In this document: positions 39,901 through 57,818 of the stretch, piece by piece
Numbering within the stretch: position 1 is the stretch's first letter
Layout: every line of letters starts with the position of its first letter
Assembly: GCF_004310395.1 (NCBI RefSeq)
Contig: NZ_BFAX01000004.1
Location: forward strand, 248,001 to 312,000
Direction: 5' to 3'
Length of the DNA: 64,000 bases
Source of the DNA: Methanofervidicoccus abyssi
GTDB taxonomy: Archaea > AGJL01 > Methanococci > Methanococcales > Methanococcaceae
Notes under the pieces: model-generated
What the model was told of the DNA's origin: nothing
The model's database searches: none
What the model saw: the letters and a program-made list of their open reading frames with translations, nothing else
Program-made: the position numbers and the translations under genes

Positions 39901-40649
39901 GAAGAGCAATAAGGAATATAATCGATAGATTGAAAAAAATAAAATTAGAATTATTAAATCAAAAAGAGGCTACTGATATTCCATATACGCCTGCATACGC
40001 TATTACAGTTCACAAATCCCAAGGAAGCGACTTTGATTATGTGGTGTTTATCCTTTCTGAGAGGTCATCGTTTATAACCCGTGAATTATTATATACTGGC
40101 TTCACCAGGGCAAAGACGAAAATGTATGTTTTAGTGCACAAGGATTTAAAAGATGAATTATATGAATTATTCAGAACTGCCTATATTAATTCACAAATTG
40201 AACTGATTCATACACTTTTGTTCGGTCATAAACAAAGCCCGTTTAAACCTTACTTAGTCCGATTGAAGAATGGTGACAAGATTGCAGTTAGATCTAAAAT
40301 AGAATACATAATTGCAAAGACTTTGGATTCATTCGGAATAGAATTTGTTTATGAACCTGAAGACTTTGCAGAAAATCATATAAAACCTGATTTCAAGATT
40401 TTCCTAGAAAATGGTGAATTTTATTGGGAACATTTAGGACTACTAAATAACGATTGGTATAAAAATAGATGGTTTAAAAAATATAAAATTTATGAAGATA
40501 TTGGCATTACAGATTTTCTTATAACTACAAGTGAAGGAGAAGAGCCAAAAGATGTTGAATCACAAATTCGGAAGATAATCGAAGATCTAAAAGGTGATAA
40601 TCTAAGGGTAACAGATGGAAGTTATTCAAAACATCATTATGTACTTTAA
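36930..40649 (+). CDS. RecD-like SF1 helicase with large N-terminal region and C-terminal nuclease-like domain
   Basis: This 1239-residue protein has a central SF1B helicase of the RecD/TraA type: Walker A SGKAGSGKT near residue 626, Walker B VIIDEASMVD near residue 745, IIGDDKQLPPIG, then the RecD motif VHKSQGSDFDYVV near residue 1028 and TRAKTKMYVLVH. The last 120 residues (KPDFKIFL, then FYWEHLG) look like a PD-(D/E)XK nuclease of the kind fused to helicases. The first 600 residues are unrecognised. GGAGATGAT precedes the ATG. It is flanked by attC-like sites B and C, and its context suggests a defence role. Confidence 0.82.
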   Translation: MKHITIRVAWHDNKWNGKICKNPSENVYCVDNYSLLSSRIQRRRNIEIEEKFKGKSISEVKNNSAYIPPCYWCINILGEEKHTIEDTHPFGDTSNKFSVIPPLNEILKPFSVFTWNFKLSFTTTGVYKYPPDLEDRVKKYIKNIEPTKSVVFLYANYSNPVTGDERKYLVLGAGLVREEIEFPKKYDIPEELYEDINRKMPVFPKIAWQFQVPLDPELTFILPYHEYLQFIERKNGTKREDKEKWLEDITVKVDDPTIIPHFKYVSMHIPHDKTIYLLYKLKKSISKLKEHGVISIEQIESYEKKVDKLLEIAWRERGQYPGFENLIAIKLENEFTNDKIEEITRKLKMFIVKKFGSIDEFLNDNKNIFTLKCEDPEIETAINIIKSQFEVFTFLARFDFSKQQFKNIIDFIGKKGFNNFKANPYSILEEYFYDIKDDDWDIDNNDYGISVYHLDIALIPDTKYANWRALYTAKSLERIRALITLILRNAAQTDGHTYLSRDEIIEKIKDYPLYYIQQDFEIDQLLLSEYESDPRFKEQFKVISIDGQVIYQLKSLEKIERIIEEFIEKVKRVEYDVDQHIVDTLVRKDIEKFKYRLRDDNAREYFKRERTELYQKIFSNKLVVISGKAGSGKTSAIINLIDVFKRQRKTPIFIFTPTGKASLVIRKRLKEVELDNDPDITTSTIHRFIYRELFERTRQLSRERMKEIFKLADLVDKIFDGHYEFINDFNKLARRWQFNPKVVIIDEASMVDEVLLCLLFSLINPSTLQHLIIIGDDKQLPPIGIGRPFIDLIYYLKNQGLESKYCHLSTNLRFPLTDNRCAKIEKLAELFRSDKEPLLEDIHEITKSADDTLEISYFRDANDLKNKLKQIIFEIDGQEQKNDTESLWELFTHIFEPNGKFNYNNLEKIQIITPKRVGKFGSTVVNREIVLEGQSRIPAGTKIICEENQYWEPERNKRILALANGSIGYITKGGYVKFVDIDELFNIFRTRRAIRNIIDRLKKIKLELLNQKEATDIPYTPAYAITVHKSQGSDFDYVVFILSERSSFITRELLYTGFTRAKTKMYVLVHKDLKDELYELFRTAYINSQIELIHTLLFGHKQSPFKPYLVRLKNGDKIAVRSKIEYIIAKTLDSFGIEFVYEPEDFAENHIKPDFKIFLENGEFYWEHLGLLNNDWYKNRWFKKYKIYEDIGITDFLITTSEGEEPKDVESQIRKIIEDLKGDNLRVTDGSYSKHHYVL

Positions 40650-42574: not shown

Positions 42575-43036
42575 ATGGTGATTATTGACGAGTGTCATCG
42601 TTCTGGATATGGGAGATGGAAGGAAATCCTTGATTATTTCAGTAGTGCTGTTCATTTTGATATGACTGCAACACCAAAAAGAGATAACAACATAGACACC
42701 TATGCATACTTTGGTACCCCAGTCTATGCCTATAGTTTGGGACAGGGTATAGAGGATGGATTTTTATCCCCTTACAAAATTCACAAGATTTATATAAACG
42801 TTGATAAAAAAGGGGATATCTCTTAACTGATGTGGCAAGCGAAGGTGCAGTTATTGAAGCTCCCGAAGATGTGGAAGTTTAAGGAATTCTATTCTGTAGG
42901 TGAATTTGAAAAGGTTATAACTTTACCAGATAGAACAGAGGCTATGACAAAGAAACTTGCTGAGATATTTTTTAGAAAAAGTTATAAAATGGAGAAAGAA
43001 CAGTTAATGGTTTCGTCTAAAATCTTCAAGTCATGA
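42575..43036 (+). pseudogene. Remnant of a type I restriction HsdR subunit (EcoEI-like)
   Basis: VIIDECHRSGYGRWKEIL and MTATPKR with YFGTPVYAYSLGQGIEDGFLSPY are the DEAD-box and following motifs of EcoEI-type HsdR helicases. The frame breaks near 42817 and again near 42871. Joined across two one-base shifts, it reads LLTDVASEGAVIEAPEDV, then EFYSVGEFEKVITLPDRTEAM, as in HsdR. Both ends of the gene are missing. It is of a different subfamily from the intact HsdR at 59065, so it is not a duplicate of it. Confidence 0.75.
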
Positions 43037-43494: not shown

Positions 43495-44325
43495 TTACTG
43501 CTTTTTATATACGATAATGCTCACATTGTCCCTTGTATCTTTTAATGCAATATTTAATAATTCATTTACAATATCCTTTGGATCTTTATTACTACGTAAT
43601 ATATTTAAAATATCTTTCTTATTAACATAGTCATGAAGTCCATCGGAACTTAGAAGAATTATATCTCCCTTTTTTAGATCCCAGAGATAGTCGTCTACCT
43701 TAAAATCATCTAATCCCAATGCCGAGGTAATGATATTCTTCATTGGATGGGTCATGGCCTTCTCCTCTGAAATTTGACCACTATCTATTAAGGCCTGGAC
43801 AAAGGAGTGATCCTTTGTTCTAAAAACTATTTCCCCATCTCTAATTAAATAGGCCCTACTATCCCCACAGTTTGCTATAATGCATTTATCTCCTTTAACT
43901 ATTGCAGTTGTTAGTGTTGTTCCCATTCCCTTTCTATCTCCAATAGCGTTTTCTTTTATTTTGCTGTGTGCCGTAATGTATGCATCTTTTAAAAGTTCTT
44001 TTATCTCTTCAATTGATAGGTTTTCATTGTATTTTTCCATGATAATGTTTTTTAAAGTATCTACTGCCATCTTTGATGCAATCTCCCCTGCATTATGTCC
44101 TCCGACACCATCTGCAACTGCTAATATGTAGATGTCTTTTATTTTTTTAATTAAAATGCTGTCTTCGTTGTTTGTTCTATTCCCTTTGTCAGATATACCG
44201 TAGGCATTATCAATGTCGATGTTTTTTTCTTCTTCAATTTTTATTTTGGTTTTAGATTTGTTCTTTTTTTCTTCTCCATCTTTCTTATATCCAATTTTTT
44301 TTAGAAATTTGTTTATTATTCCCAT
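43495..44325 (-). CDS. PP2C-type Ser/Thr protein phosphatase
   Basis: The 276-residue protein is a soluble PPM/PP2C phosphatase like bacterial Stp1/PrpC. After a lysine-rich 40-residue tail come DKGNRTNNEDS, AVADGVGGHNAGEIAS, GMGTTLTTA, NCGDSRAYLI, LSSDGLHDYV and DTRDNVSIIV, covering all metal-binding Asp motifs. It is the last gene of the cluster, 8 bases after the soluble kinase gene, so it probably reverses the action of the two kinases. Confidence 0.92.
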   Translation of the reverse strand: MGIINKFLKKIGYKKDGEEKKNKSKTKIKIEEEKNIDIDNAYGISDKGNRTNNEDSILIKKIKDIYILAVADGVGGHNAGEIASKMAVDTLKNIIMEKYNENLSIEEIKELLKDAYITAHSKIKENAIGDRKGMGTTLTTAIVKGDKCIIANCGDSRAYLIRDGEIVFRTKDHSFVQALIDSGQISEEKAMTHPMKNIITSALGLDDFKVDDYLWDLKKGDIILLSSDGLHDYVNKKDILNILRSNKDPKDIVNELLNIALKDTRDNVSIIVYKKQ

Positions 44326-44333
44326 ATTACCCC

Positions 44334-45839
44334 CTAAAATCTCATCTTAACCTTATTTACTACTATTTTCGCCTTTATTTTTATCTCATCAGACGGTTCT
44401 TTTATCCCTTCTTCAATTCGATATTCGATAGCTTTTATTAGATTATCAACGGAATTTATTATTTCCTCAGAGCAGTTCTTATCTGCATAATATTTTAAAT
44501 CGTAGAGATAATTTAAAGCATCCCCTAAATCGTTGTTTAATAAGTGGAATAAAACTAAATCAGCACAATAAAATATACTTCTACTAAAATCTTTATTAGT
44601 TTTTGAAGCTGTAAGGTTAGTTGTAAGTTGTATGTTTAGATATTCTGATAGATCCTTCTGCAATTCTTCTACTGATTGGTATCTTTTGGATTTGTCCTTT
44701 TGAATGCATTTTAAGATAATATATTCCAACTTCTCATCAATTAAAGGATTTAATTCCGATGGTTTTGGCGGCATTTCGTTTTTAATACTATAGATTATGT
44801 CAAACTCATTACCATTAAACGGTAGTTTTTTTGTTGTTAATTCGTATAGGATTATCCCCATTTGATAAATGTCCGTCCTTTTATCGATTGTTTCTCTGCT
44901 TATTTGTTCTGGTGCTGAGTATTGGAGAGTTAAAGCGTTTATAGTTGTAGATTTTGAAGTAATTTCTTTTGATAGTCCCCAATCTGTAATTTTTGGTATG
45001 TTGTTTTTTATTAAAATGTTGTGTGGTTTTAAATCCTTATGAATTATTCCTTTACTATGCGCATATTTCAGTCCATTTAACACTTCAAAAAATAGTAAAA
45101 CGGCTTCTTTTAACTCTAAATTATTTTTTATTTTATTTAATTCCTTTTCACAGTATTCCATTTCTATGTATGGATATGGATAAATATTACTATAATAAAG
45201 TTGAACAATGTTGATATGTTTTAATTTTTTCCAATTTCCTATTTCCCTAAGGAATATTTCCCCAGTAGTTTCAGTTAATTCTTTTGGGACTTTTATGGCT
45301 ACCGTTTTTCCATTTTTAATTGCTTTAAATACATAGGAAAATCCCCCTTCCCCAATTTTTATAGGATTTTGATATTTTGATAATAATTCATTTAGTTTAT
45401 TCAACAATTCGTTTTCTCCACTAAATGATTGATTTATAGGATTTGAAGAATTAACCGATGAGGAATTATATGGCGCATTTATTGAGGAGTCTTCACCTAA
45501 TAACAAATTTTTTATGAGGTTTAATTCATTATTTATTTGATTTTTTAAGTTAGTAATTTGACTGTTAAATGTTTTTATCTTTAAATTTATCATTTCATCC
45601 TCTAATTTATCAATATCGTTAGAAGATTTTTTTAAGAGATTCCTTGCTTTTAAATACTCTCCATCTGATTTCAATTTTAAAGCATCCCTTACATTATTTT
45701 CGATTTCTTTTAGTTTAACTTTTAATCTGAGCTCGTTTAATGTGGTTTGATATTTGACATACTCCTCCCCTAAATACCTCTTATGATTTTTTAAAAATCT
45801 CTCAATGGCATTTATTTCGTTCAATATTTCCTTTATCAT
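44334..45839 (-). CDS. Hanks-type Ser/Thr protein kinase with N-terminal coiled coil
   Basis: The 501-residue soluble protein has a helical coiled-coil region (residues 1-120), a Ser/Asn-rich linker, a kinase domain (about 155-410) with GEGGFSYVFKA, the VAIKVP lysine, the HKDLKPHNIL catalytic loop, DWG in place of DFG, and YSAPEQ, then a helical C-terminus. It overlaps the upstream membrane-protein gene by 38 bases, so the two are translated together. Its kinase domain resembles that of the receptor kinase in the same cluster. Confidence 0.9.
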   Translation of the reverse strand: MIKEILNEINAIERFLKNHKRYLGEEYVKYQTTLNELRLKVKLKEIENNVRDALKLKSDGEYLKARNLLKKSSNDIDKLEDEMINLKIKTFNSQITNLKNQINNELNLIKNLLLGEDSSINAPYNSSSVNSSNPINQSFSGENELLNKLNELLSKYQNPIKIGEGGFSYVFKAIKNGKTVAIKVPKELTETTGEIFLREIGNWKKLKHINIVQLYYSNIYPYPYIEMEYCEKELNKIKNNLELKEAVLLFFEVLNGLKYAHSKGIIHKDLKPHNILIKNNIPKITDWGLSKEITSKSTTINALTLQYSAPEQISRETIDKRTDIYQMGIILYELTTKKLPFNGNEFDIIYSIKNEMPPKPSELNPLIDEKLEYIILKCIQKDKSKRYQSVEELQKDLSEYLNIQLTTNLTASKTNKDFSRSIFYCADLVLFHLLNNDLGDALNYLYDLKYYADKNCSEEIINSVDNLIKAIEYRIEEGIKEPSDEIKIKAKIVVNKVKMRF

Positions 45840-46911
45840 ACCCTATCCCCTCAATTTTATCAGATACTAATTTAATTTTTGCATCTAATATGTTATGGAC
45901 TACTGATTTAATTTTATTATTTAGGGATGAAATTAATTCTTCATCTTCCATTGATTTTGCTATTTTCTCTGCTTTTTTATAGTATTCCAGTGATTTATCC
46001 CATTTTTTTATGGCATCATTTAAGTTGTTGTTTTGAAAATCATTTAGTGCCGCTGGTAAGAGTTTCTTAGCCTCTAATAGGTAGGAATTAAGTAGATCTA
46101 AATCTTTGCTATTGTTTGATACCGTGTTGGTCGGTAACACTTTGGGACTCATAGTTATTGATTTTTTATTAATTCCTTCTAAATATACTTTCCCACTGAA
46201 ATAACCAAATACTATGCAGGAATAATAATAGAATGCCCCCCATAACCAAATAGCCACAGGAATTAATATAATTGTCAAGAAAAATAGGACTGCCATTATA
46301 TATATCACAATAGCTAAAAAGCCTGTAATAATACAGTAAATAATATCAAAAATTAGGATATTAACCCATATTTTTTTTAATATTCTAAATAACGTAGCGA
46401 ATTCAAAAGATGAAGATATTTTGTTGGTATATATGTAATGTGAAAATGCGATATGCATGAATAACATAGATATTGCGAAGCACACAATAATAATAACACT
46501 AAAAATATCGTCGTTGAAGGTTACCGAAAAAATATCGAGAATCACAGTAAGCAATATATAAAATAATATACAAAATAATAAAAATAATAATATAGAATAT
46601 ACAAAAAAAACTATGGATATCTTTAATCCTTTGATAAATTGACTAAATATATTAAATTCAGGCAACTCATTATTTTTACCCTCATAAATAAGGGTTATTA
46701 TATCTGCCATATAGCCAAGCAATGAAATATTAAGTATGGGTATTACCCCTATTACCCCACCCACAACAAGTTTTTTCTTCCAATTTTTATCTTTAAATAT
46801 ATACGTGAATGATTCCCAAATATATTCCATCATATTTTTTCCCTTCATATATGCTATCCCTGTGTCTATGTTGGAACCCTCTTTACCAAATCTAATATAT
46901 TTTATTTCCAT
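45802..46911 (-). CDS. DUF4013-like polytopic membrane protein with helical C-terminal tail
   Basis: The 369-residue protein has several membrane helices (about residues 45-250), beginning with an EYIWESFTYIFKD and VVGGVIGVIPI region typical of the DUF4013 membrane family. A 100-residue soluble helical tail follows, with a TPR-like stretch (DAIKKWDKSLEYYKKAEKIAKSME). The frame starts at 46911, overlapping the upstream kinase gene by 10 bases. An alternative start is the Met pair at residues 27-28. The tail may dock partners of the signalling cluster, which is inference. Confidence 0.75.
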   Translation of the reverse strand: MEIKYIRFGKEGSNIDTGIAYMKGKNMMEYIWESFTYIFKDKNWKKKLVVGGVIGVIPILNISLLGYMADIITLIYEGKNNELPEFNIFSQFIKGLKISIVFFVYSILLFLLFCILFYILLTVILDIFSVTFNDDIFSVIIIVCFAISMLFMHIAFSHYIYTNKISSSFEFATLFRILKKIWVNILIFDIIYCIITGFLAIVIYIMAVLFFLTIILIPVAIWLWGAFYYYSCIVFGYFSGKVYLEGINKKSITMSPKVLPTNTVSNNSKDLDLLNSYLLEAKKLLPAALNDFQNNNLNDAIKKWDKSLEYYKKAEKIAKSMEDEELISSLNNKIKSVVHNILDAKIKLVSDKIEGIGYDKGNIERNKCH

Positions 46912-49772
46912 TCTCTCTTAATTCTATTCAATAAAACTTCAAGTTTCTCTATAGTATCTTTTCCAAGTGGGATGCTTTCTTTTATCAAATACTCAATATG
47001 TGCTATTGCTCCTCTTAATTCCCTCTTGTTTTCTTCTGATTTAACGTAATTTTCTAATGATTCTAAAGTTTCCAGCAAACCAACCTTATCATTTACCTTT
47101 GCACAGTTTAAGGCAAGTTTCGTTGTTATATCAATCAAATCTTTTATTAATCTATTAATTTCTTTTTTATCTGTTGAAATTTTTAGTTTTTGAGTAGTTT
47201 TGGTTAGTGTCCTTCTAAGTTCTTCTTTTTCTTTAGTTAATTCTTCTAATGAATTTAAAGCATCTAAAAACTCATCTATTGATTGGAATCTATCTTCCTT
47301 TTTCTTTGCTAAGAGTTTTTCAAGTATTCCATCGAATGTTGATAATTCGGGGTTTATTTTTGAAGGCAGTGTTGGTTTTTTATTTGGGTTTATGATTTTT
47401 AAGGATACCTGAGTTGGCGTGATGCCCTCATAGGGCAGTCTTCCAGTTAGTAACTCATAAAATAAAACTCCCAACTGATAAATATCAGTTCTCTTATCTG
47501 TCTTCCCGTATTCTTCTTCATCTATTTGCTCCGGTGCTGAATATATTAAAGTTAATCCCTTTGTGGTTGTTGCTGTAGTGGATTTTGCACCTATTTTTGC
47601 AAGTCCCCAATCTGTTATCTTTGGTGTTAAATTTTGAGTTAATAGGATGTTCGATGGTTTAATATCTCTGTGGATTATGTTTTTGTCATGAGCGTGTTTT
47701 AACCCTTCTGCTATTTGTTTTATTAATTTTATGGCATCTTTTGGATTTAATGGTTTTGGATATTCACCTAAATCTTTTATTAGTTTTCCATTTAAGTTAT
47801 ATCCTTCAATATACTCCATCTCTATGTGTGGAATTGGCTCTTCGTAAGCATCATACATTTTAACAATATTTGGATGATTGAGATTTTTCCATGCTTTGAT
47901 TTCTTTTAATAGGTATTTCTTAGCTTTCTCGTCAAAAGTTGGGACTTTTAAAGCAAGTGGTTGAGTTCCACCTTTTCTTTTAACTTTGAATACCTTTCCA
48001 AATCCACCTTCTCCTAATTTCTCTAATGGGATGTATTTGTTTAATAATTCAGCTGGGAAATCTGGGATATCACTTACTAACTCTTTATTAGTTGTTTCCT
48101 GTTTAGTTATGCTTTTTTCACTTTCATCTACTTTATTTTGTTTCTTTTTTCTTTTTCTTATAAAGCGTGCTCCTCCCCATACTACAATTAAACCTATGAA
48201 AAGTAGTAATATTAAAATAATATTACTACCATGATTAATATTGATATAATTAATATTGATAGTAGGAATAGCTTCTAACTTAGCATTAACAGTTTTTGAA
48301 AGTCCTGGAGAAATATAAACAATTTCCGTATAATCCTTATACCCGTCTTTTTTTAATGTAATAGTATACTCTCCGGGGGATAAACCAGTTATAGTTTTAG
48401 GAGTAGTCCCTTTATAAGATCCATTAATATAAATTTTAGCCCCAGTTGGATTACTATCTACATACAGTGAACCAGTTATTGGTTTTAGGTTCACATATAC
48501 TCTCTTTGAATCTCCTGGAGAAATATAAACAATTTCCGTATAATCCTTATACCCGTCTTTTTTTAATGTAATAGTATACTCTCCGGGGGATAAACCAGTT
48601 ATAGTTTTAGGAGTAGTCCCTTTATAAGATCCATTAATATAAATTTTAGCCCCAGTTGGATTACTATCTACATACAGTGAACCAGTAATAATAGCTTTGA
48701 ATAGATAGACACTACCATTCCCATTTCCAGCAACTATATACTTGTCATTAGGAGTTATTGATACTGATCTAACATTACTACCTGTCCAATAATTCCACAA
48801 TAACCTCCCTTCTCTGTTGAAGAGATAGACATTACCATCCCAACTACCTGCAACTATATAATTCCCATCAGGAGTTATTGATACTGATTCAACAGCACCA
48901 CCTGTCTCATACTTCCACAATAACCTCCCTTCTTTATTGAAGAGATAGACATTACTATCATTACTCCCTGCAACTATATAATTCCCATCAGGAGTTATTG
49001 ATACTGATTCAACAGCACCACCTGTCTCATACTTCCACAATAACCTCCCTTCTTTATTGAAGAGATAGACATTACCATCCCAACTACCTGCAACTATATA
49101 ATTCCCATCAGGAGTTATTGATACTGACCAAACCAAATTACCTGTCTCATACTTCCACAATAACCTCCCTTCTCTGTTGAAGAGATAGACATTCTTATCC
49201 TCACTCCCTGCAACTATATAATTCCCATCAGGAGTTATTGATACTGAATTAACCCAATATTCATCTGTTTTATACTTCCATAATTCATCCCCATTATTGT
49301 TGAAGAGATAAATGTTGTCATTAAATCCACCACTTCCTATAGCTATATATTTTCCATCGGGTGTTATTGCCACTGATGTAACATCATCTTCTGGCTGGTA
49401 CCTCCATAATAAATTCCCATTATTGTTGAAGAGATAGATACCATTATTAATATGACCTATAGCACCACCACTAATGGTATCTCCAACTCCAGCAACTATA
49501 TACTTGCCATCAGGAGTTATTGATACTGAAGAAATATAAACTAAATCCTTCTCATATTTCCACAACAAATCCCCATTATTGTTGAAGAGATAGATACCAT
49601 TACCTCCTGCAACTATATAATTCCCATCAGGAGTTATTGATACTGAATCCACCCAACCTCCAGTATCATACTTCCATACAGCAGTATATTTTATATCCTC
49701 TCCAAAAACAAAACCCACATTTACAAAAATTCCAATCAATAAAAATCCAATTATTAAATTTTTCAACTTCAA
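46902..49772 (-). CDS. Receptor Ser/Thr kinase: signal peptide, beta-propeller, two PEGA domains, TM, kinase
   Basis: Domains in order: signal peptide (residues 1-25), eight WD/PQQ-like repeats of about 40 residues built on SVSITPDGNYIVAG, NVYLFN and LLWKYET, two 70-residue PEGA repeats (GSLYVDSNPTGAKIYINGS), one membrane helix near residues 517-535 (IILILLLFIGLIVVW), and a cytoplasmic kinase with GEGGFGKVF, LALKVP, HRDIKPSNIL, DWG and YSAPEQ. A helical tail ends it. The outer part would sense the cell surface and the inner part would phosphorylate. Long DNA repeats within the gene point to recent internal duplication. Confidence 0.9.
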   Translation of the reverse strand: MKLKNLIIGFLLIGIFVNVGFVFGEDIKYTAVWKYDTGGWVDSVSITPDGNYIVAGGNGIYLFNNNGDLLWKYEKDLVYISSVSITPDGKYIVAGVGDTISGGAIGHINNGIYLFNNNGNLLWRYQPEDDVTSVAITPDGKYIAIGSGGFNDNIYLFNNNGDELWKYKTDEYWVNSVSITPDGNYIVAGSEDKNVYLFNREGRLLWKYETGNLVWSVSITPDGNYIVAGSWDGNVYLFNKEGRLLWKYETGGAVESVSITPDGNYIVAGSNDSNVYLFNKEGRLLWKYETGGAVESVSITPDGNYIVAGSWDGNVYLFNREGRLLWNYWTGSNVRSVSITPNDKYIVAGNGNGSVYLFKAIITGSLYVDSNPTGAKIYINGSYKGTTPKTITGLSPGEYTITLKKDGYKDYTEIVYISPGDSKRVYVNLKPITGSLYVDSNPTGAKIYINGSYKGTTPKTITGLSPGEYTITLKKDGYKDYTEIVYISPGLSKTVNAKLEAIPTININYININHGSNIILILLLFIGLIVVWGGARFIRKRKKKQNKVDESEKSITKQETTNKELVSDIPDFPAELLNKYIPLEKLGEGGFGKVFKVKRKGGTQPLALKVPTFDEKAKKYLLKEIKAWKNLNHPNIVKMYDAYEEPIPHIEMEYIEGYNLNGKLIKDLGEYPKPLNPKDAIKLIKQIAEGLKHAHDKNIIHRDIKPSNILLTQNLTPKITDWGLAKIGAKSTTATTTKGLTLIYSAPEQIDEEEYGKTDKRTDIYQLGVLFYELLTGRLPYEGITPTQVSLKIINPNKKPTLPSKINPELSTFDGILEKLLAKKKEDRFQSIDEFLDALNSLEELTKEKEELRRTLTKTTQKLKISTDKKEINRLIKDLIDITTKLALNCAKVNDKVGLLETLESLENYVKSEENKRELRGAIAHIEYLIKESIPLGKDTIEKLEVLLNRIKREWK
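48304..48686 (-). repeat. Tandem PEGA-coding repeat, identical over about 170 bases
   Basis: The block 48304-48476 recurs at 48514-48686 with no difference I can find, at a period of 210 bases (70 residues). Such identity in DNA as well as in protein means very recent duplication or ongoing gene conversion. Confidence 0.85.
48780..49240 (-). repeat. Near-identical 120-base repeats coding for propeller blades
   Basis: About four successive units of 120 bases contain the shared blocks TTCCCATCAGGAGTTATTGA and CATACTTCCACAATAACCTC. They encode blades four to seven of the propeller and are nearly identical in DNA, unlike blades one to three and eight. Confidence 0.8.
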
Positions 49773-49901
49773 AATCCCCCTCCAAAAATTTAATAATATA
49801 AAATTTTTATTACTGTAATTTTACTTAAACATTACGCAGTGAGGGGGAAAATCTACGATTTTCTAAATATTCAAAAAAGAGTTTTAAAAATTAAAAAAAT
49901 A

Positions 49902-51137
49902 TTATCCTCCAAACTCCTCCTTCCATTTCTCATACTTCTTAATTATCGATTTAGTTAAAGGACTCTTTATTTTCTTAAATGCCTCTTCAAAATCATCATC
50001 AGTCAGAGCTCTTGTTTTTAACTTCCTTCTCTTCAACTCCTTATAGGACAAATTAGCCATTTTATATAAATCCTTATTTACATCCCTAATCATATTCCAA
50101 ATAGCATCCTGACAGAGATTTTTTAAATCCCTACCAGAATAAAGCCTTTCCACACACTTATCTGCAATTTCATCTAAATTAACATCCAACTTAAGCCCTT
50201 TTGTGTTAATTTTAATAATTTCCTTTGTAGCTTTTTTATCTGGTAAAGGAATATAAATTCTCCTTGAAAACCTGGAGAGTACAGCCTCATCCAAATCCCA
50301 TGGCGTATTTGTTGCCGAAAGCGTTAATATTAACCTATCGCTCCCCTTATCTTGAAAACCATCCAATTCTGTTAATAAAGTCGATAACATTCTCCTTGAT
50401 GCCTCACTTATTCCATCGCTCCTCTTTGTTGTTAAGGCATCGATTTCATCTATGAACACTATGCTTGGGTGGAGCTCTCTTGCAACATCATATAATGCAC
50501 TTATAATTTTTGAAGATTCACCATAGTATTTACTCGATACGGATGATGCTTTAACATTAAAGAATGTTGCTTCCAAACTTCCAGCACATGCAGAAGCCAA
50601 TAGTGTTTTACCTGTTCCAGGTGGTCCAAATAATAAAATCCCTTTCCACGGCTGTATTGATGCAGGCTTTTGAAGTGCTGATATTACTATAGTTTCCATC
50701 ATAAGCTGTTTTACTTCTTCTAACCCCCCTATATCTTCCCATTTTATAGTGGATTTTTGTATTAAATTATTTTTCACAAAATTTTTAAACTTATCAATCT
50801 CATTTTCTACCTCATCCTCCGTGGTGTTTGATGAGCTCGGTTTATTTGATGGTCCTGATTTTTTTGTAGATTTGGATTTATTAGCTTTTGATGGATTAAA
50901 TACCTCTTCTATGTTATTTGCCACTAACTCCCATTTTTTAGCTTTCTCCAAATATCTTTTTTCATTGTATTCATCATACTTTGCTATTTGTCTCAATAAT
51001 TTGGCACATTCTAATGCCTTTTTTTTAGCAATACTTTCGTTCTTTTTCTCCTTTGCTATTTCATACTCTTTTTTAGCTCTTTTAAACTGACTCATCAGAG
51101 CTCCGTATAAATCAATTTCCAATACAACCCCCCCCAA
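49902..51137 (-). CDS. Vps4/katanin-like AAA ATPase with MIT-like N-terminal domain
   Basis: The 411-residue protein has one AAA domain, unlike the double-domain CDC48. The N-terminal 80 residues are three charged helices with the spacing of an MIT domain (ALMSQFKRAKKEYEIAKE, then a Tyr-rich turn, then YLEKAKKWELVANNIEEV). A Ser/Lys linker follows, then [24 protein letters not shown] near residue 171, IVFIDEIDAL, SATNTPWDLDEAVLSRF and the C-terminal helix LTKSIIKKYEKWKEEFG of the Vps4 group. Vps4 disassembles ESCRT-III filaments, and two ESCRT-III-like genes lie just upstream in the same cluster. Confidence 0.88.
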   Translation of the reverse strand: MGGVVLEIDLYGALMSQFKRAKKEYEIAKEKKNESIAKKKALECAKLLRQIAKYDEYNEKRYLEKAKKWELVANNIEEVFNPSKANKSKSTKKSGPSNKPSSSNTTEDEVENEIDKFKNFVKNNLIQKSTIKWEDIGGLEEVKQLMMETIVISALQKPASIQPWKGILLFGPPGTGKTLLASACAGSLEATFFNVKASSVSSKYYGESSKIISALYDVARELHPSIVFIDEIDALTTKRSDGISEASRRMLSTLLTELDGFQDKGSDRLILTLSATNTPWDLDEAVLSRFSRRIYIPLPDKKATKEIIKINTKGLKLDVNLDEIADKCVERLYSGRDLKNLCQDAIWNMIRDVNKDLYKMANLSYKELKRRKLKTRALTDDDFEEAFKKIKSPLTKSIIKKYEKWKEEFGG

Positions 51138-51200
51138 AATATGATAAATATTATAATAATATTATTTTAAAATAGGTGGCAATAATTATTTTTCTAATAA

Positions 51201-51219
51201 TCACTTACGAAGTAAGTGA
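51201..51219. repeat. 8-bp hairpin between ESCRT-III-like gene 2 and the Vps4-like gene
   Basis: TCACTTAC and GTAAGTGA are exact complements around a three-base loop. It lies in the 91-base gap after the stop at 51229. It could slow or end transcription, or protect an mRNA end, so that the two genes have different levels. Confidence 0.45.
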
Positions 51220-51228
51220 GCAACGAAA

Positions 51229-51870
51229 TCAATTTATTATTTTGTCTAATTTCTTTAACTCTTCTTCAAAATCGTCTTCTTTTTCCTGCTTCTTTTTATC
51301 GGATACTATTTCCTTTGCATCGTCAATATCCAATTCCCCCTCTTTAATCGCATGTATTGTATTTAATATATCCTCAATATCTTCGTCATGTTCTTCTGAT
51401 GCCGAGCTCAGCATATCGTCGGTGATGCCGAGAACGTTATTTAGTGTTCCAATGATATTTTCACTATTTATTTTCATATTAATTAAATGATTTTCCAACT
51501 CCTGTGGCGACATGCTGTTTAGTGTGTTCCATAAAGGCGTGGATTTTAAAATCTCTTCATTTTCTTTTATTACTAAAAGATTATCTACAAATCTCATCTG
51601 TTTATTTAATAGAGCATGAGCGTTTTGTAATTGTTTTTTTCTTTGACTGAGAGTTTTTATTTTTGTAGCAATTGTCAGTTCTTCACTTTTGCTTTTAGAG
51701 TTCTTTGCCTTTTCAAACAATATTGTGATTTGCTCGTCTATTTTTGAGAGTTCATCTTCTAATTTTTTAACTTGAATATCCAATTTTATCTTTGATTCGT
51801 TTAGTTTATCTAATGGCATATCTAATGGATTTTTATTTTTAGAGAACAGATTTTTCAATTTACCTAACAT
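51229..51870 (-). CDS. ESCRT-III/Snf7-like protein 2
   Basis: The 213-residue protein has the layout of the ESCRT-III/PspA superfamily: a short amphipathic start (MLGKLKNLFSKNKNPLD), a long basic helical hairpin (residues 20-110), then acidic helices and a charged C-terminus EEELKKLDKIIN that resembles an MIT-interacting motif. It is a paralogue of the next gene: both have FV(N/D)NLL(I/V) followed by an E..LK...(M/L)W stretch and P..LE. Identity is too low for certainty without a profile search. GAGGGGG precedes the ATG. Confidence 0.7.
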   Translation of the reverse strand: MLGKLKNLFSKNKNPLDMPLDKLNESKIKLDIQVKKLEDELSKIDEQITILFEKAKNSKSKSEELTIATKIKTLSQRKKQLQNAHALLNKQMRFVDNLLVIKENEEILKSTPLWNTLNSMSPQELENHLINMKINSENIIGTLNNVLGITDDMLSSASEEHDEDIEDILNTIHAIKEGELDIDDAKEIVSDKKKQEKEDDFEEELKKLDKIIN

Positions 51871-52043
51871 TTTACCCCCTCATTTTTTGAGAGATTTTAA
51901 TCACATTTGAAACCTAATTTAATCTTGTGGATTATTACCTCCGCTGATGCCACTACTTAATAAGATATGGGATTTTAATCTTATCACATACCACAATATC
52001 CCCACATTACTCATTATATTCAAAAAAATAGAAAATTAAATTA

Positions 52044-52685
52044 TTATCGGTTCTCCTTCTCTAATCTCTTAAATAATTCTTCATCGTCCTCTTCTTCCTC
52101 CTCATCAGCATCCAAGTTCAAATTGCTCACAACATCATCAGCTTCCATATCGCCACTTTCAACCTGCCCCCATGCATCGAATAGTTTTTTCTCTGTGCTA
52201 TCGACTTCCTCATCAAAATCATCAATTCTAATTTCAAAGACCTTATTCAACCTCTCAACAGTTTGGTCGAACTCCTTACCATCGAGTATTATATCACTCA
52301 GTTTTAACTCCAAGAGCTCAGGTTGTATGTTGCTAATCTTATCCCACATTCCTATATTTTTCAATTCTTTTTCGTATTTTTTGACTATTAAAAGGTTATT
52401 TACAAAATTAAACTGTTTCTGATAAGTTTGGAAGCTTTTATACTTTAATCTCATTTCCATTTCAATACTTTTTATGTCCTGTGCAAGCATTTTTTTTGTG
52501 AGTTTATCAGCACCAATCCCTTCTTTGAATAATCGCTTCTTTTGTTTATCCAATAATTTTATCTCTTTTTTCACCCTATCCAATTTACTTTTTAATCTAA
52601 TTCTTTCCCCCTCTAAATCCCTTATTGTTAATTTTTCTAGTGGATTTTTTTGTAATTTCCCTTTTATTTTGTTCCATAAACTCAT
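52044..52685 (-). CDS. ESCRT-III/Snf7-like protein 1
   Basis: This 213-residue paralogue of the previous gene starts MSLWNKIKGKLQKNPLEKL and forms a basic coiled hairpin with LFKEGIGADKL, then a run of acidic helices. It ends in an Asp/Glu block followed by EELFKRLEKENR, close to the type 1 MIT-interacting motif (acidic, then LxxRL). The basic first half and acidic second half are the known charge pattern of ESCRT-III subunits, which polymerise on membranes. PspA/Vipp1 is the closest alternative, but the adjacent Vps4-like ATPase favours ESCRT-III. Confidence 0.72.
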   Translation of the reverse strand: MSLWNKIKGKLQKNPLEKLTIRDLEGERIRLKSKLDRVKKEIKLLDKQKKRLFKEGIGADKLTKKMLAQDIKSIEMEMRLKYKSFQTYQKQFNFVNNLLIVKKYEKELKNIGMWDKISNIQPELLELKLSDIILDGKEFDQTVERLNKVFEIRIDDFDEEVDSTEKKLFDAWGQVESGDMEADDVVSNLNLDADEEEEEDDEELFKRLEKENR

Positions 52686-52715
52686 TTTTTCACCTATTTT
52701 ATTTTAGTTATTTTT

Positions 52716-54455
52716 CTAATTATTTTTTAACAAAACAAAACCAATTCCTTTATAATATTTAGTTTTCCCCTTTCCGGAAGCTTCATATTCATAAAATACC
52801 TTTTTTGCCACCCTTTCATCTCCAACCTCATTGATAGCCTCTTCCAGCGTAATATATTTTTTTATAAATATGTTCTCATCAATATACTTTTTCAATCTTT
52901 CAATCTTCTCCTTATCAAATTCCAAACTCATCAATGGTGCAAATGCCTTTGCATACTCATCCACTTCATTATAGTACAGATTCCCAGTTTCAACATCGAG
53001 AAGTGCGAGAGCAATTTTTTTGGATAAATATCTCATTTTAAAGTCATCAGAATTAACAAATTTAATCACTTCATCCTCAAAACCTGTTGGTGAGGCAATC
53101 AGTAACACAATTTTATCAAAACTGTCATCTTTCACATTCTCCATCACCTCAATTATTTTACCCAACGATATTGGATAAACATCAAAACCCATTTTTTTGT
53201 AATTTTCCCTATTTGCTAGGAATATTCCCCTCAACATTACTTTCATCCTTTTACCAAACGGATTAAGCTTTTTCTCCTTTAACACTGCTATTATTTGTTT
53301 ATTTTTAGGAAGTTCCACTGAATTGTTTGGATCAAATACTTCTTCAATAGATATTATTTTAAAAGTTTTATTTTCCACTTTCACGCCCGTATTCTTCATT
53401 TCATCCAGTTTTTTATCCAATCGTCCAATAAACCATTCTTCATAAGATAATGCGTTTTCTGTTCTTACAAATCTCGAACCTTCCTTTTTAGCATCTCTTA
53501 TCCTTTTTAAAAGGTTGGTTAGTTCCTCATTTTTCTCCTTTAATTCTGTTTTTTCTGATTCCAATGATTTTATTTTTTCATTTAATTCCTCAATAAGTTC
53601 CATATAGTCTTTTTCAATACATTCAATTTCCTTTTTTAGTCTCTCTTGAAGTTCCCTATTTTTCTCCATTTCAATTTCCATTCTTATTTTTTCTTTTTCC
53701 CTTTCAAACTTTCTTTTTAACTCTTCTTTCATTTCCTCAATTTTTGAGAGTTCTATTTCTTTTTCTCGTTCGAGTTCATCTCTCAACCTTCTCTTCTCCA
53801 CCCTTATAAAATCACGGAGCTCGTAAATTTCATTTTCAAGTTTTTGGATTTTATTATCTACGCCAGTTATAAAGTCGCTAAACCAATCTATTTCCTTCAT
53901 TGCTCTGAATATTGCCTCATCCATTTTAGTTTTGTATTCATTCCATTTTGTTTTTGCATAATCCCTTATTGGAAGCTTTATTGTGTAGTCTTTTATAATT
54001 TCATCAACTTTTTTTCCTATGTTGTTGTAATATTCTTTAAGAAGATTCAAAGTTTCGTCCGTGCCATCCCTATTTGCTTTGCTTATTTCCCTTAAAAGAT
54101 CCTCCACTGTCCAGAGTTCAAACACATTATACTTTAAAATATACTCCACAAGTTCGAGCTCCTTAGGTTTATATCGCTTAATTGCTGGAAATGACTCGTT
54201 GTTATGATAAAAACTAAATGCAAGTGTTGCTAATGCCCATTCAAAATCTCTTCTTACGGCATTGTCAATGTCTTTTGAAAACTTCCCACATTCCCCATCT
54301 TTGTATTTTTCATAATTTTCTTTTATTTTATTCCATAACTCCACCCTTTTTTCATAAGGTTCATATATTATATCGTATCCATCTCTTAATACCCTGTTTG
54401 CTTTTTGTTTTAGTTTATCTAATTGTTCATAATTTCCCTCTGAAAACAGACTCAT
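52716..54455 (-). CDS. Large coiled-coil protein, unknown function
   Basis: The 579-residue protein has a helical N-terminal domain with conserved-looking FEWALATLAFSFYHNNESFPAIKRY, then about 130 residues of strong coiled coil (roughly 200-330, many Glu/Lys heptads), then an alpha/beta domain with IVLLIASPTGFEDEVIKFV and ALLDVETGNLYYN, and a C-terminal winged-helix-like end (KYITLEEAINEVG). No family is recognised. It overlaps the upstream gene by 4 bases and precedes ESCRT-III-like 1 by 30 bases, so it probably works with them as a scaffold, recruiter or regulator. Confidence 0.75.
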   Translation of the reverse strand: MSLFSEGNYEQLDKLKQKANRVLRDGYDIIYEPYEKRVELWNKIKENYEKYKDGECGKFSKDIDNAVRRDFEWALATLAFSFYHNNESFPAIKRYKPKELELVEYILKYNVFELWTVEDLLREISKANRDGTDETLNLLKEYYNNIGKKVDEIIKDYTIKLPIRDYAKTKWNEYKTKMDEAIFRAMKEIDWFSDFITGVDNKIQKLENEIYELRDFIRVEKRRLRDELEREKEIELSKIEEMKEELKRKFEREKEKIRMEIEMEKNRELQERLKKEIECIEKDYMELIEELNEKIKSLESEKTELKEKNEELTNLLKRIRDAKKEGSRFVRTENALSYEEWFIGRLDKKLDEMKNTGVKVENKTFKIISIEEVFDPNNSVELPKNKQIIAVLKEKKLNPFGKRMKVMLRGIFLANRENYKKMGFDVYPISLGKIIEVMENVKDDSFDKIVLLIASPTGFEDEVIKFVNSDDFKMRYLSKKIALALLDVETGNLYYNEVDEYAKAFAPLMSLEFDKEKIERLKKYIDENIFIKKYITLEEAINEVGDERVAKKVFYEYEASGKGKTKYYKGIGFVLLKNN

Positions 54456-55012
54456 AATAACCCCTCAATAAATAACTTCATATCATTGTCAATTTTATTT
54501 TTTATTAAATCTACACTTTCGCCGTATCCTTCAATTTCAAAGTTTATTATTAATTTATTTTCATTATTTTCGTAACCTACTGGATTCGAAAACCGAAGGT
54601 TTTCGTATAATTTGATTGAAATGGAACAACTTCCTTTTTTTGTGTATACTTCGTATTTTTTTGTACCATTTACAGAACATTCGTAGCTTGCACCAAGTTT
54701 TATCATAAGATATTTTAAAAAACTCTCTACTCCTTCTTTTTTACCGGTAATCTTATAGCTCAGTGTGATTTTTTTTGAAGATATTGTTTTTTTTATTTCC
54801 TTAATTTCATAGACTCTTACTTTTTCTTCTGGATTTCCTTCCAAACGGGACATAATATCGTTTATAAACCCATCTATGTCATCTATGTCTGCTATTATTG
54901 CCATCTTTCTTATTTTTTCCATATTTCCTTTATTTGACCACTTTTCGATTAGGTAATCAATCCTCTTTCTCTCAGCATCTTTGTCATAATCTATCACTAT
55001 TAAATTGCTCAT
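54452..55012 (-). CDS. Unknown protein, first gene of the ESCRT-like cluster
   Basis: The 186-residue protein starts MSNLIVIDYDKDAERKRIDYL and appears to be an alpha/beta protein with a beta-rich middle (KKITLSYKITGKKEGVESFL) and a helical end. No family or catalytic motif is recognised. Its stop overlaps the start of the coiled-coil gene (ATGA), which ties it to the cluster. A TATA-like stretch on the minus strand lies near 55040-55055. Confidence 0.7.
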   Translation of the reverse strand: MSNLIVIDYDKDAERKRIDYLIEKWSNKGNMEKIRKMAIIADIDDIDGFINDIMSRLEGNPEEKVRVYEIKEIKKTISSKKITLSYKITGKKEGVESFLKYLMIKLGASYECSVNGTKKYEVYTKKGSCSISIKLYENLRFSNPVGYENNENKLIINFEIEGYGESVDLIKNKIDNDMKLFIEGLL

Positions 55013-55613: not shown

Positions 55614-57146
55614 ATGTGGTTTGGAAAGCTTGATACTTCAACATTAGAAAATTGGCTCTGGGAAGCAGCATGTAGTATTAGAGGAGAAATAGATGCTCCA
55701 AAGTATAAAGATTACATAATCCCATTGATATTTTATAAAAGGCTCTGTGATGTTTATGAAGATGAAATAAAGAAGCTTGCCAGTGAACTTGGAAATGAAG
55801 AGATAGCAAGAAAGCTTGCAGAAAAAGACAGAAAACTCGTAAGATTCTACATCCCTGAAGAATGTCTGTGGGAGAATATCAGGAAAATAACAACAGGTTT
55901 GGGTGAAAAATTAACAGAGGCATTGAGGAAAATAGCAAAAGAGAATCCAAAATTGCAGGGAGTTATTGATATTGTTGATTTTAATGCAACTCAGGCAGGA
56001 CAGAGAATAATAAGCGATGAGAGCATCCACAGGTTAATGCAAATTCTGAGCAAGCACAGGCTTGGTTTGGATGATGTAGAGCCTGACATTCTGGGCAGAG
56101 CATACGAATACCTTTTGAGAAAATTTGCTGAAGGATCAGGGCAGGCAGCGGGTGAATTCTATACACCAAGAGAGGTTGGATTGTTAATGGCTTACTTACT
56201 TGATCCTGAAGAAGGAGAAGAGGTTTATGATCCTGCCTGCGGTTCAGGTGGTTTGCTTATAAAATCCCAGCTCGTTTTAAGGGAAAAGAAAAAAGAAGTT
56301 AAAAGGCCTTTAAAGCTCTATGGACAGGAAATAAATCCATTTACCTATGCAATGGCAAAAATGAATGCCTTTATCCATGACATGGATGCAGATATAAGGG
56401 TTGGGGACACAATAAGGAATCCAAAATTTTTGGAGAACAACAGGGTTAAGCAATTTGATAAAGTTGTGGCAAACCCGATGTGGAATCAAAAATTTCCGCA
56501 GGAAGTCTTTGAAAATGACCCTTACAACAGATTCAGCTTTGGAATCCCTCCATCAAGGCAAAGCTCTGACTGGGGATGGATTCAGCATATGTTTGCCTCT
56601 TTAAAAGATGGTGGAAAGCTGGTTGTGGTTATTGATACAGGAGCAGTAACAAGAGGGAGCGGAAGCCCTGGGATCGATAGAGAGAAAGAAATAAGGAAAA
56701 AATTTGTGGAAAATGATCTTATTGAAGCAGTGATTTTACTCCCCGATAATTTATTTTACAACACAACAGCACCCGGAATCATAATCGTGATAAATAAGGC
56801 GAAGAAGCACAAGGGCGAGATTTTGCTTATAAATGCTTCAAAGGAGTTTGCAAAGGGAAGACCAAAGAATTATTTGACGGATGAAAACATAAAGAAGATA
56901 CTTGATGCATATTTCGGCTGGAAGGAAATAGAAGGTTTTTCAAAGATCATAACAATAGAGGAGGCAAGAAAGAACGATTACAACCTGAGCCCTTCCAGAT
57001 ATGTTTCAGTTGATGAGAAAGAGGAGATTTTGCCAGTTGAGGACATACTCGTTGAGCTTGCAAAGGTTGAGGAGGAGAGGAGAAAGGTTGATGAGGAGTT
57101 AAAAGAAATTTTAAATAAATTAGGGTGGAAATATGGAAATGAATAA
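55614..57146 (+). CDS. hsdM: Type I restriction-modification methyltransferase subunit HsdM
   Basis: The 510-residue N6-adenine methyltransferase has the HsdM N-terminal helical domain (DYIIPLIFYKRLCDVYEDE), the AdoMet motif DPACGSGGLLI near residue 208, and the catalytic motif as NPMWN (a known variation of NPPF) near residue 290. It works with HsdS to methylate adenines at the target site. GGGTGATG precedes the ATG. Its last codons overlap the start of the next gene. Confidence 0.95.
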   Translation: MWFGKLDTSTLENWLWEAACSIRGEIDAPKYKDYIIPLIFYKRLCDVYEDEIKKLASELGNEEIARKLAEKDRKLVRFYIPEECLWENIRKITTGLGEKLTEALRKIAKENPKLQGVIDIVDFNATQAGQRIISDESIHRLMQILSKHRLGLDDVEPDILGRAYEYLLRKFAEGSGQAAGEFYTPREVGLLMAYLLDPEEGEEVYDPACGSGGLLIKSQLVLREKKKEVKRPLKLYGQEINPFTYAMAKMNAFIHDMDADIRVGDTIRNPKFLENNRVKQFDKVVANPMWNQKFPQEVFENDPYNRFSFGIPPSRQSSDWGWIQHMFASLKDGGKLVVVIDTGAVTRGSGSPGIDREKEIRKKFVENDLIEAVILLPDNLFYNTTAPGIIIVINKAKKHKGEILLINASKEFAKGRPKNYLTDENIKKILDAYFGWKEIEGFSKIITIEEARKNDYNLSPSRYVSVDEKEEILPVEDILVELAKVEEERRKVDEELKEILNKLGWKYGNE

Positions 57147-57483
57147 AAATAATTTCAAATTTAAAAAAACAGAAATAGGCTTGATTCCCGAGGATTGGGA
57201 AGTTGTGAAGTATATCAAGGTATTAAAAAAATTAAAACCCATACTTGAAAGAGAATTTAAGGTTTCAAAAATAGGGCTTTTTGGCTCTGTTGTGAGGAAC
57301 GAACAAAGCCAAGATAGTGATATTGATATAATCGTGGAATTTTCTGAACCTATAGGATTGAAATTTGTTGAACTTGCAGAATTTCTTGAAAAAAAGCTGG
57401 GAAGAAAGGTTGATTTAGTCTCAAGCAAAGGTATAAGCCCTTACATAAAACCGTATATAGAGAAAGAGGTAATTTATATATGA
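57133..57483 (+). CDS. mntA: MntA-type nucleotidyltransferase antitoxin fused to an HsdS leader
   Basis: From about residue 30 the protein is a minimal nucleotidyltransferase of MntA type with IGLFGSVVRNEQSQDSDIDIIV (GSX10DXD). MntA antitoxins neutralise the HEPN partner by adding AMP to it. Its first 24 residues (FKKTEIGLIPEDWEVV) are instead the start of an HsdS protein, nearly the same as at 57821. The native MntA start was probably the GTG at 57205. The ATG at 57133 overlaps the hsdM stop as hsdS starts usually do. Confidence 0.87.
   Translation: MEMNKNNFKFKKTEIGLIPEDWEVVKYIKVLKKLKPILEREFKVSKIGLFGSVVRNEQSQDSDIDIIVEFSEPIGLKFVELAEFLEKKLGRKVDLVSSKGISPYIKPYIEKEVIYI
57157..57205 (+). repeat. 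Copy 1 of the duplicated hsdS 5' end
   Basis: About 49 bases that recur at 57821-57869 with around five mismatches. Together the two copies bracket mntA-hepT. Confidence 0.8.
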
Positions 57484-57818
57484 AAGATATTAAACCCTTT
57501 TTGAGGCATATCATTGATGAATGCGAATATCTTGAAAATGCCTCAAGAAATTTAGAATTTGAACAGTTTATAAAAGATGAGACTCTAAAAAGAGCATTTG
57601 TAAGGAGCCTTGAGATTATTGGAGAAGCTGCAAAGAATATACCTGATGATATAAAAAACAAATATAAACATATCCCTTGGAAACAGATAGCAGGCTTGAG
57701 AGATGTGCTTATCCATAAGTATTTTGGTGTTGATTATAAAAATGTGTGGAAGATAGTAAAAGAAGATATACCGAAACTTAAGGAAGATATTAGTAAGATT
57801 CTGGAGGGGTTAAAATGA
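57480..57818 (+). CDS. hepT: HepT-type HEPN toxin
   Basis: The 112-residue helical HEPN protein carries the RNase motif RX4HXY as RDVLIHKY near residue 78, with IIGEAAKNIP before it, as in HepT toxins. It is paired with the MntA gene just upstream (start overlaps its stop by 4 bases). HepT cleaves RNA unless AMPylated by MntA. Its stop overlaps the hsdS start (ATGA). Confidence 0.92.
   Translation: MKDIKPFLRHIIDECEYLENASRNLEFEQFIKDETLKRAFVRSLEIIGEAAKNIPDDIKNKYKHIPWKQIAGLRDVLIHKYFGVDYKNVWKIVKEDIPKLKEDISKILEGLK

Follow-up and report, generated by a model that had tools for sequence, protein, structure and literature searches.

The heat-loving, methanogenic archaeon Methanofervidicoccus abyssi carries, within the 64,000-nucleotide stretch of contig NZ_BFAX01000004.1 analysed here (positions 248,001 to 312,000; "the window"), a cluster of nine genes in which a Vps4-type ATPase and two ESCRT-III-like proteins are combined with two Ser/Thr kinases and a PP2C phosphatase. 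Judged from its sequence, the cluster belongs, as a Methanococcales representative, to the known "Main" clade of archaeal ESCRT (endosomal sorting complexes required for transport) systems, and we put the probability at roughly 0.6 that it encodes a euryarchaeal Main-clade system for filament-based membrane remodelling under kinase/phosphatase control. The Main clade is known from a computational description by Makarova et al. 2024 (mBio, PMC10936438), which already names Methanococcales as members, with the same gene set; such a system is thus not new to this order, which an earlier note on this DNA had called not known for a Cdv operon. The central proposal of that note, an accessory ESCRT-III/Vps4-type remodelling system controlled by kinases and a phosphatase and not serving division, is supported by the predicted fold, the gene order, the ATPase tree and the two FtsZ genes of the host. 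A 2021 review held euryarchaea to be without ESCRT-III (PMC10117752), and no experimental follow-up of the 2024 euryarchaeal ESCRT catalogue was found in the literature searched.

The gene set and its probable ESCRT components

As given in the main text of PMC10936438, the Main-clade gene set comprises a Vps4-type ATPase, ESCRT-III, a coiled-coil/winged-helix protein (arCOG09748: helical, coiled coil, C-terminal winged helix), a Cas2-like adaptor (arCOG08177: Cas2-like and TBP-fold domains), kinases and PP2C, and vesicle formation with sorting of phosphorylated cargo is proposed there for these systems. The window cluster is like it in bringing together in one locus Vps4, ESCRT-III, counterparts of arCOG09748 (cc) and arCOG08177 (orf9), a membrane Ser/Thr kinase and PP2C, the kinase and phosphatase being present (Pfam) as in many Main-clade members; compared with the set in that text, it adds a WD40/PEGA receptor kinase, a second kinase and a DUF4013 protein. 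The cc and orf9 assignments were made by position and architecture rather than with arCOG profiles. All 39 ESCRT-III-positive Thermococci were found to have an orthologue of cc, which is degenerate in a single genome, and of the 76 negative ones a single genome has a fragment of it; no winged helix was found by sequence in its C-terminus. With a wide profile of orf9, Cas2 accounted for four of the seven PDB matches below E=5 (at E 0.32-0.75), weakly echoing the published Cas2-like domain.

The ATPase contains AAA and Vps4_C domains (Pfam; Vps4_C 27.5 bits against a cut-off of 21.3), and in the ATPase tree it groups at 97/99 with ATPases of Methanococci, Thermococci, Archaeoglobi, Methanosarcina and Methanomicrobiales, apart from CDC48 and from Asgard Vps4. 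Its gene has ESCRT neighbours, one of the two published criteria for Main-clade Vps4, the other being an N-terminal MIT domain; the N-terminal domain is helical and conserved across 33 ATPases. Comparison with homologues indicates that the protein probably starts at an internal TTG at 51122 and not at 51137. A MIM1/MIT pairing that would link snfA to the ATPase was considered and rejected: the tail motif is conserved in Methanococci but not beyond them, and profiles do not identify the N-domain as MIT. In three Methanomicrobiales loci (L092:6728-7495, L094:10491-11255 and L096:5597-6118; L and G numbers are our labels for loci and genomes), the gene directly following vps4 encodes a separate protein in which the Vps4 N-domain occurs a second time (E 3e-12 to 3e-10) and which has no AAA domain.

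The genes snfA and snfB are paralogues (hhalign 99.9%). AlphaFold2 predicted for both a long helical hairpin and short helices (pLDDT 67.6 for snfA and 79.7 for snfB, the latter from a 68-row alignment), and the best Foldseek matches of both models among 350,542 PDB chains were CdvB2 filaments, at E=0.25 for snfA and, for the top four matches of snfB, at E 0.12-0.17 with probabilities of 0.97-0.99. By manual count, 21 of the 50 matches listed for snfB were CdvB, CdvB2, Asgard ESCRT-III, CHMP, PspA or Vipp1. In profile searches, the top PDB match of snfA was CdvB (9s9j, E=0.029), snfB matched the CdvB1_B2 model at E=0.0088, and hhalign against Snf7-positive Asgard ESCRT-III gave E=0.002 at best, with unrelated controls at 0.035-0.5. 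A Thermococcus orthologue of snfB scored E=0.0048 against Pfam Snf7, while the window proteins themselves had no Snf7 match; this test does not discriminate, since a Sulfolobus acidocaldarius control registers and yet stays below the cut-off. The PspA_IM30 profile (Pfam) gave no match at E<=1 for either protein, and a deeper 68-row profile yielded no better PDB sequence match, designed coiled coils coming top. On sequence alone, ESCRT-III homology is weak and without a significant Pfam match. Taken together, the predicted fold and the weak sequence links make membership of snfA and snfB in ESCRT-III likely but not proven.

In a tree of the two paralogues, snfA and snfB form two deep clades, each containing Methanococci, Thermococci, Archaeoglobi, Methanosarcinia and Methanomicrobia, a few fast-evolving Methanomicrobiales rows being uncertainly placed. 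Because each clade spans the same five groups, the pair is, on this phylogeny, an ancient duplication, which is reported here for the first time.

A further link comes from Thermococcus peptonophilus, in which a third gene just downstream of a plasmid-borne version of the cluster (see below) scores Snf7 at 4e-4. With phmmer, the significant matches of its product outside its own family were snfB orthologues (best E=2e-5, no reversed decoys), and we use this single-sequence link as weak support. An iterated profile joining snfA/snfB to this third gene was discarded, as a clean profile without snfB members misses the window proteins. A third ESCRT-III-like gene of more canonical type, encoding about 188 amino acids (aa) and scoring Snf7 at E down to 2e-4, occurs in Thermococci and Archaeoglobi loci (L148:24961-25527, with relatives in L062, L063, L064, L066, L073 and L075) and immediately precedes a second Vps4 paralogue in L066 and L075; it was not seen in the window.

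The nine ORFs (open reading frames) are intact and lie where the earlier note had placed them (Table 1), with wider gaps of 129, 91 and 173 bases and, at the remaining junctions, overlaps or gaps of 8-30 bases. Pfam recognises PP2C, two Pkinase domains (169 and 172 bits), DUF4013, the propeller and two PEGA domains accompanying one of the kinases, and AAA with Vps4_C; snfA and snfB have no significant Pfam match, and cc and orf9 have none. The AAA protein, both kinases and the phosphatase have kept their catalytic motifs, the kinases having DWG where DFG is expected, and dN (nonsynonymous divergence) is well below dS (synonymous divergence) in the cluster genes compared. Homologue starts suggest that the DUF4013 gene probably begins about 60-75 bases inside its ORF. 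No Rfam family scored above threshold anywhere in the window.

Table 1. Features of the nine-gene cluster (window positions 43495-55012)
Feature	Position	Strand	Basis
orf9, small adaptor-like protein, counterpart of arCOG08177	54452..55012	-	position and conservation with cc-snfA-snfB-vps4
cc, 579-aa helical/coiled-coil protein, counterpart of arCOG09748	52716..54455	-	orthologues, position
snfA, ESCRT-III-like subunit A	52044..52685	-	AlphaFold2 fold, profile match
snfB, ESCRT-III-like subunit B	51229..51870	-	AlphaFold2 fold, Foldseek, CdvB1_B2 match
vps4, Vps4-type ATPase with a single AAA domain and a conserved helical domain at the N-terminus	49902..51122	-	Pfam, tree, corrected (probable) start
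recK, receptor kinase: signal-like N-terminus, propeller, 2 PEGA, transmembrane segment, Ser/Thr kinase	46902..49772	-	Pfam, catalytic motifs
recK C-terminal module, candidate ESCRT docking tag	46905..47267	-	same family as kinS C-terminus, co-occurrence with ESCRT-III
DUF4013 multi-pass membrane protein with helical tail, optional	45802..46911	-	Pfam, 45.9 bits
kinS, kinase with helical N-terminal region, no recognised transmembrane segment, optional	44334..45839	-	Pfam Pkinase, motifs
kinS C-terminal module, candidate ESCRT docking tag	44337..44654	-	same module family as recK
PP2C phosphatase	43495..44325	-	Pfam PP2C, metal-site motifs intact

A C-terminal module shared by the kinases

The C-termini of recK and kinS belong to one family of helical modules (hhalign 99.9%), and the occurrence of this module follows that of the ESCRT-III-like genes across genomes. 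Among 36 Methanococci genomes it was present in 13 of 13 with snfA and in one of 23 without (Fisher 6e-9, kinship ignored), this one being an 81% complete genome (G026); among 115 Thermococci genomes it was present in 38 of 39 that are ESCRT-III-positive and in nine of 76 that are negative (Fisher 1e-20, kinship likewise ignored). Copies also lie far from the cluster: one is at C2:83362 of the window genome, within a propeller/kinase protein of 1029 aa, and G030 has eight matches. The remote module proteins that were read by eye are kinases with propeller, TPR or IG-like domains; most of them have no predicted transmembrane segment, and all five that were checked start with a basic amphipathic stretch (e.g. 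MFSNILRIFKK). A TPR protein that has no kinase domain (L051:10762-12543) also carries the module.

The simplest reading is that the module is a candidate docking tag for the ESCRT machine, modelled on human ULK3, which docks on ESCRT-III through MIT domains (PMC4475061). The likeness to Asgard/eukaryotic ESCRT with ULK3 is functional, namely a kinase tethered to control an ESCRT machine; in contrast to ULK3, the archaeal module is not MIT by profile, and phosphorylation of the archaeal ESCRT parts is a prediction. MIT domains on kinS and recK were accordingly dropped as an explanation, their modules being negative by profile. A PCI-like domain, or small helical C-terminal domain, on locus kinases is mentioned in PMC10936438; the genome-wide co-occurrence and the remote kinases are absent from the main text of that paper and are new here. 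As for the remaining genes of this group, the phosphatase scores 220 bits against the NCBIfam Stp1 family, just below the cut-off of 230, and the DUF4013 protein, which is fused to a kinase in some relatives, has a helical tail that is TPR/MIT-like and ambiguous between the two.

Distribution, transfer and neighbouring genes

The gene block is conserved in 13 of the 36 Methanococci genomes and well beyond that class: orf9-cc-snfA-snfB-vps4 with kinases and PP2C recurs, sometimes rearranged or split, in Methanococci, Thermococci, Archaeoglobi, Methanosarcinia and Methanomicrobia, so that the grouping is more than chance. In Thermococci, snfA/snfB are found in 39 of 115 genomes, nearly always as a pair. 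The DUF4013 gene and kinS are optional, and a complete seven-gene version (orf9, cc, snfA, snfB, a kinase with the module, vps4 and PP2C) is present on a finished 49-kb plasmid of T. peptonophilus OG-1.

The window ATPase is 95% identical to that of G033, a genome from another genus (LeuRS, leucyl-tRNA synthetase, 69%; CDC48 86%), compared with 82% for G028 of the same genus (LeuRS 91%, CDC48 94%). Similarly, dS of snfA, snfB, vps4 and orf9 is about 0.2 against G033 and 0.75-1.2 against G030, of the same genus, and the Vps4 tree pairs the window with G033. These comparisons indicate that the cluster has moved horizontally, and recently, which is also new here.

In the window, the cluster is flanked by a PDC-S68 candidate defence gene and a type I restriction-modification (RM) operon; in the other genomes whose flanks were tested, the neighbours are mostly ordinary genes, and a defence-island reading was set aside because it holds mainly for the flanks in the window genome. 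The PDC-S68 match (PADLOC candidate defence family; 36930-40649, upstream of the cluster) is full-length at 1046.9 bits. Reading by eye further revealed that the methylase and specificity genes of the type I RM operon have a nucleotidyltransferase (MNT) and HEPN pair between them (57133-57818), and showed a short ORF resembling a fragment of a restriction/helicase subunit beside the PP2C end of the cluster (42575-42826). Elsewhere, an archaeal STAND-type ATPase (PF01637 in L042) lies between snfA and snfB or beside snfA in four Methanococci genomes (L042:7648-8691, L046:13973-14989, L050:14000-15013 and L051:4821-5858), and in G033 an SPFH/Band 7 gene (L041:2488-3318) is situated upstream of the cluster at a distance of about 1.5 kb, SPFH genes being assigned to Meth_adaptin ESCRT loci in the main text of PMC10936438. 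One Thermococci genome, G087, has a decayed locus with snf and cc pieces in a single 663-aa ORF (C1:425489-426970), and no kinase module was found in it.

Similar genes were also seen on records filed under bacteria, for which the main text of PMC10936438 reports no ESCRT. Two single-cell contigs of Dehalococcoidia (AH-958-E16 and AH-958-J08, filed as Chloroflexota; L093 and L095), about 98.7% identical to each other with differing inserts, carry cc-snfA ... kinase-snfB-vps4 and in addition another Snf7-scoring gene (E=4e-6) accompanied by a second Vps4-like ATPase, a further kinase and PP2C; the L095 contig also has a Uma2 gene and an aspartate kinase of bacterial type, which shares about 50% identity with its bacterial counterparts. 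These loci may represent a bacterial ESCRT, or else contamination shared by both records. The complete plasmid NZ_CP128401.1 of Candidatus Chlorohelix allophototropha (Chloroflexota; L149, 1-4655) has two coiled-coil-like genes, a Vps4-like ATPase (35% to the C-terminal part of the window ATPase, E=3e-22) and a Ser/Thr kinase, in that order, the first small gene matching the ESCRT-III-like profile only after iteration. A contig labelled Planctomycetaceae and filed under bacteria (L133, 8443-11089) has a snf-like gene, a Vps4-like AAA gene and a third gene with Snf7 at E=4e-4, its bacterial label possibly being due to mis-binning.

Function and rival explanations

Within the Main-clade reading, we infer the filaments, the membrane target, the phosphorylation targets, the docking role of the module and the biological purpose. 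The most probable mechanism is as follows: cc, with orf9 as adaptor, would nucleate snfA/snfB filaments on the inner side of the cell membrane; the Vps4-type ATPase would extract and recycle the subunits; the membrane would thereby be bent and cut, giving vesicles that probably carry selected, perhaps phosphorylated, cargo; Ser/Thr kinases with diverse extracellular or intracellular sensors, plugging into the machine via the single common C-terminal module, would switch assembly; and PP2C would reset the switch. The best inference as to function is kinase-controlled vesicle formation with cargo sorting, or membrane repair. A broader possibility, held only tentatively, is that Main-type ESCRT is a mobile cassette, carried on a plasmid, passed between archaeal genera and perhaps into Chloroflexota, with a single remodelling engine serving scattered sensor kinases through a common C-terminal docking module.

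Several observations weigh against a Main-clade ESCRT machine. The vps4 N-domain has no Pfam or PDB match to MIT, which Asgard Vps4 matches at 1e-11 to 1e-13, and MIM1-like tails were found only in the snfA proteins of eight Methanococci. Profiles compared with those of Snf7-positive Asgard ESCRT-III match weakly, with a probability of 14% at best, the Foldseek E-values never reach 0.001, and many proteins match long helical hairpins. The co-occurrence counts carry no correction for relatedness, and nine Thermococci have the module without detected snfA/snfB. The lack of an MIT match, together with the weak Asgard comparison and the lack of a significant Snf7 match in the window proteins, could be taken to mean that the cluster is not ESCRT but a kinase-controlled AAA unfoldase acting on coiled-coil proteins, its ESCRT-III likeness being that of helical hairpins in general. 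We consider this improbable, because CdvB2 filaments come first in Foldseek for both models, 21 of the 50 listed snfB matches fall in the ESCRT-III superfamily, CdvB tops the PDB profile matches of snfA, and the Snf7-scoring third gene of T. peptonophilus is linked to the snfB proteins.

If the proteins are ESCRT-III-like, they might instead form a PspA/Vipp1-like envelope-stress or membrane-repair device whose receptor kinases sense surface damage. PspA and Vipp1, which share the ESCRT-III superfamily fold, are among the Foldseek matches of snfB, recK carries an extracellular-type sensor, and the patchy distribution of the cluster suits a non-essential function. However, PspA systems need neither a Vps4 partner nor so many diverse sensors, the window cluster has that partner and kinases while snfA and snfB lack a Pfam PspA match, and the sensor domains vary as widely as would be expected for varied cargo or signals; repair alone therefore appears rather unlikely. 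Where the earlier note spoke of "membrane-remodelling or repair", remodelling is supported, and repair is one of several candidate functions. An anti-virus or mobile-element system, in which infection-sensing kinases trigger membrane remodelling, would fit the PDC-S68 gene and the RM operon beside the cluster as well as its horizontal transfer and plasmid carriage, but the ordinary flanks elsewhere, the recognition by PADLOC of generic kinase and AAA domains only, and the lack of any match for cc in phages make it very doubtful. Least credible is a Cdv-like division machinery. The cluster shares with CdvABC of Sulfolobales a Vps4-type ATPase and a CdvB-like fold, and with the CdvC model the ATPase reaches 203.8 bits, well short of the cut-off of 650. 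It differs in having two separate ESCRT-III-like subunits, kinases and PP2C, and within the cluster, to which the search was confined, no gene was recognised as CdvA. Moreover, the cluster is absent from 23 of the 36 Methanococci, and the two FtsZ genes of the host render a division role unlikely, even though some archaea have both FtsZ and Cdv.

The preferred reading, a Main-clade ESCRT system under kinase/phosphatase control, bears on the mechanism of vesicle budding in euryarchaea. The kinase module provides a concrete handle on the control of the machine, and genetics and reconstitution have a compact target in the seven-gene version carried by the finished plasmid of T. peptonophilus. If the Chloroflexota loci prove genuine, ESCRT could no longer be called absent from bacteria. 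Should Main-type ESCRT indeed be a mobile cassette serving scattered kinases, a cell would gain new triggers by adding receptors, not machines.

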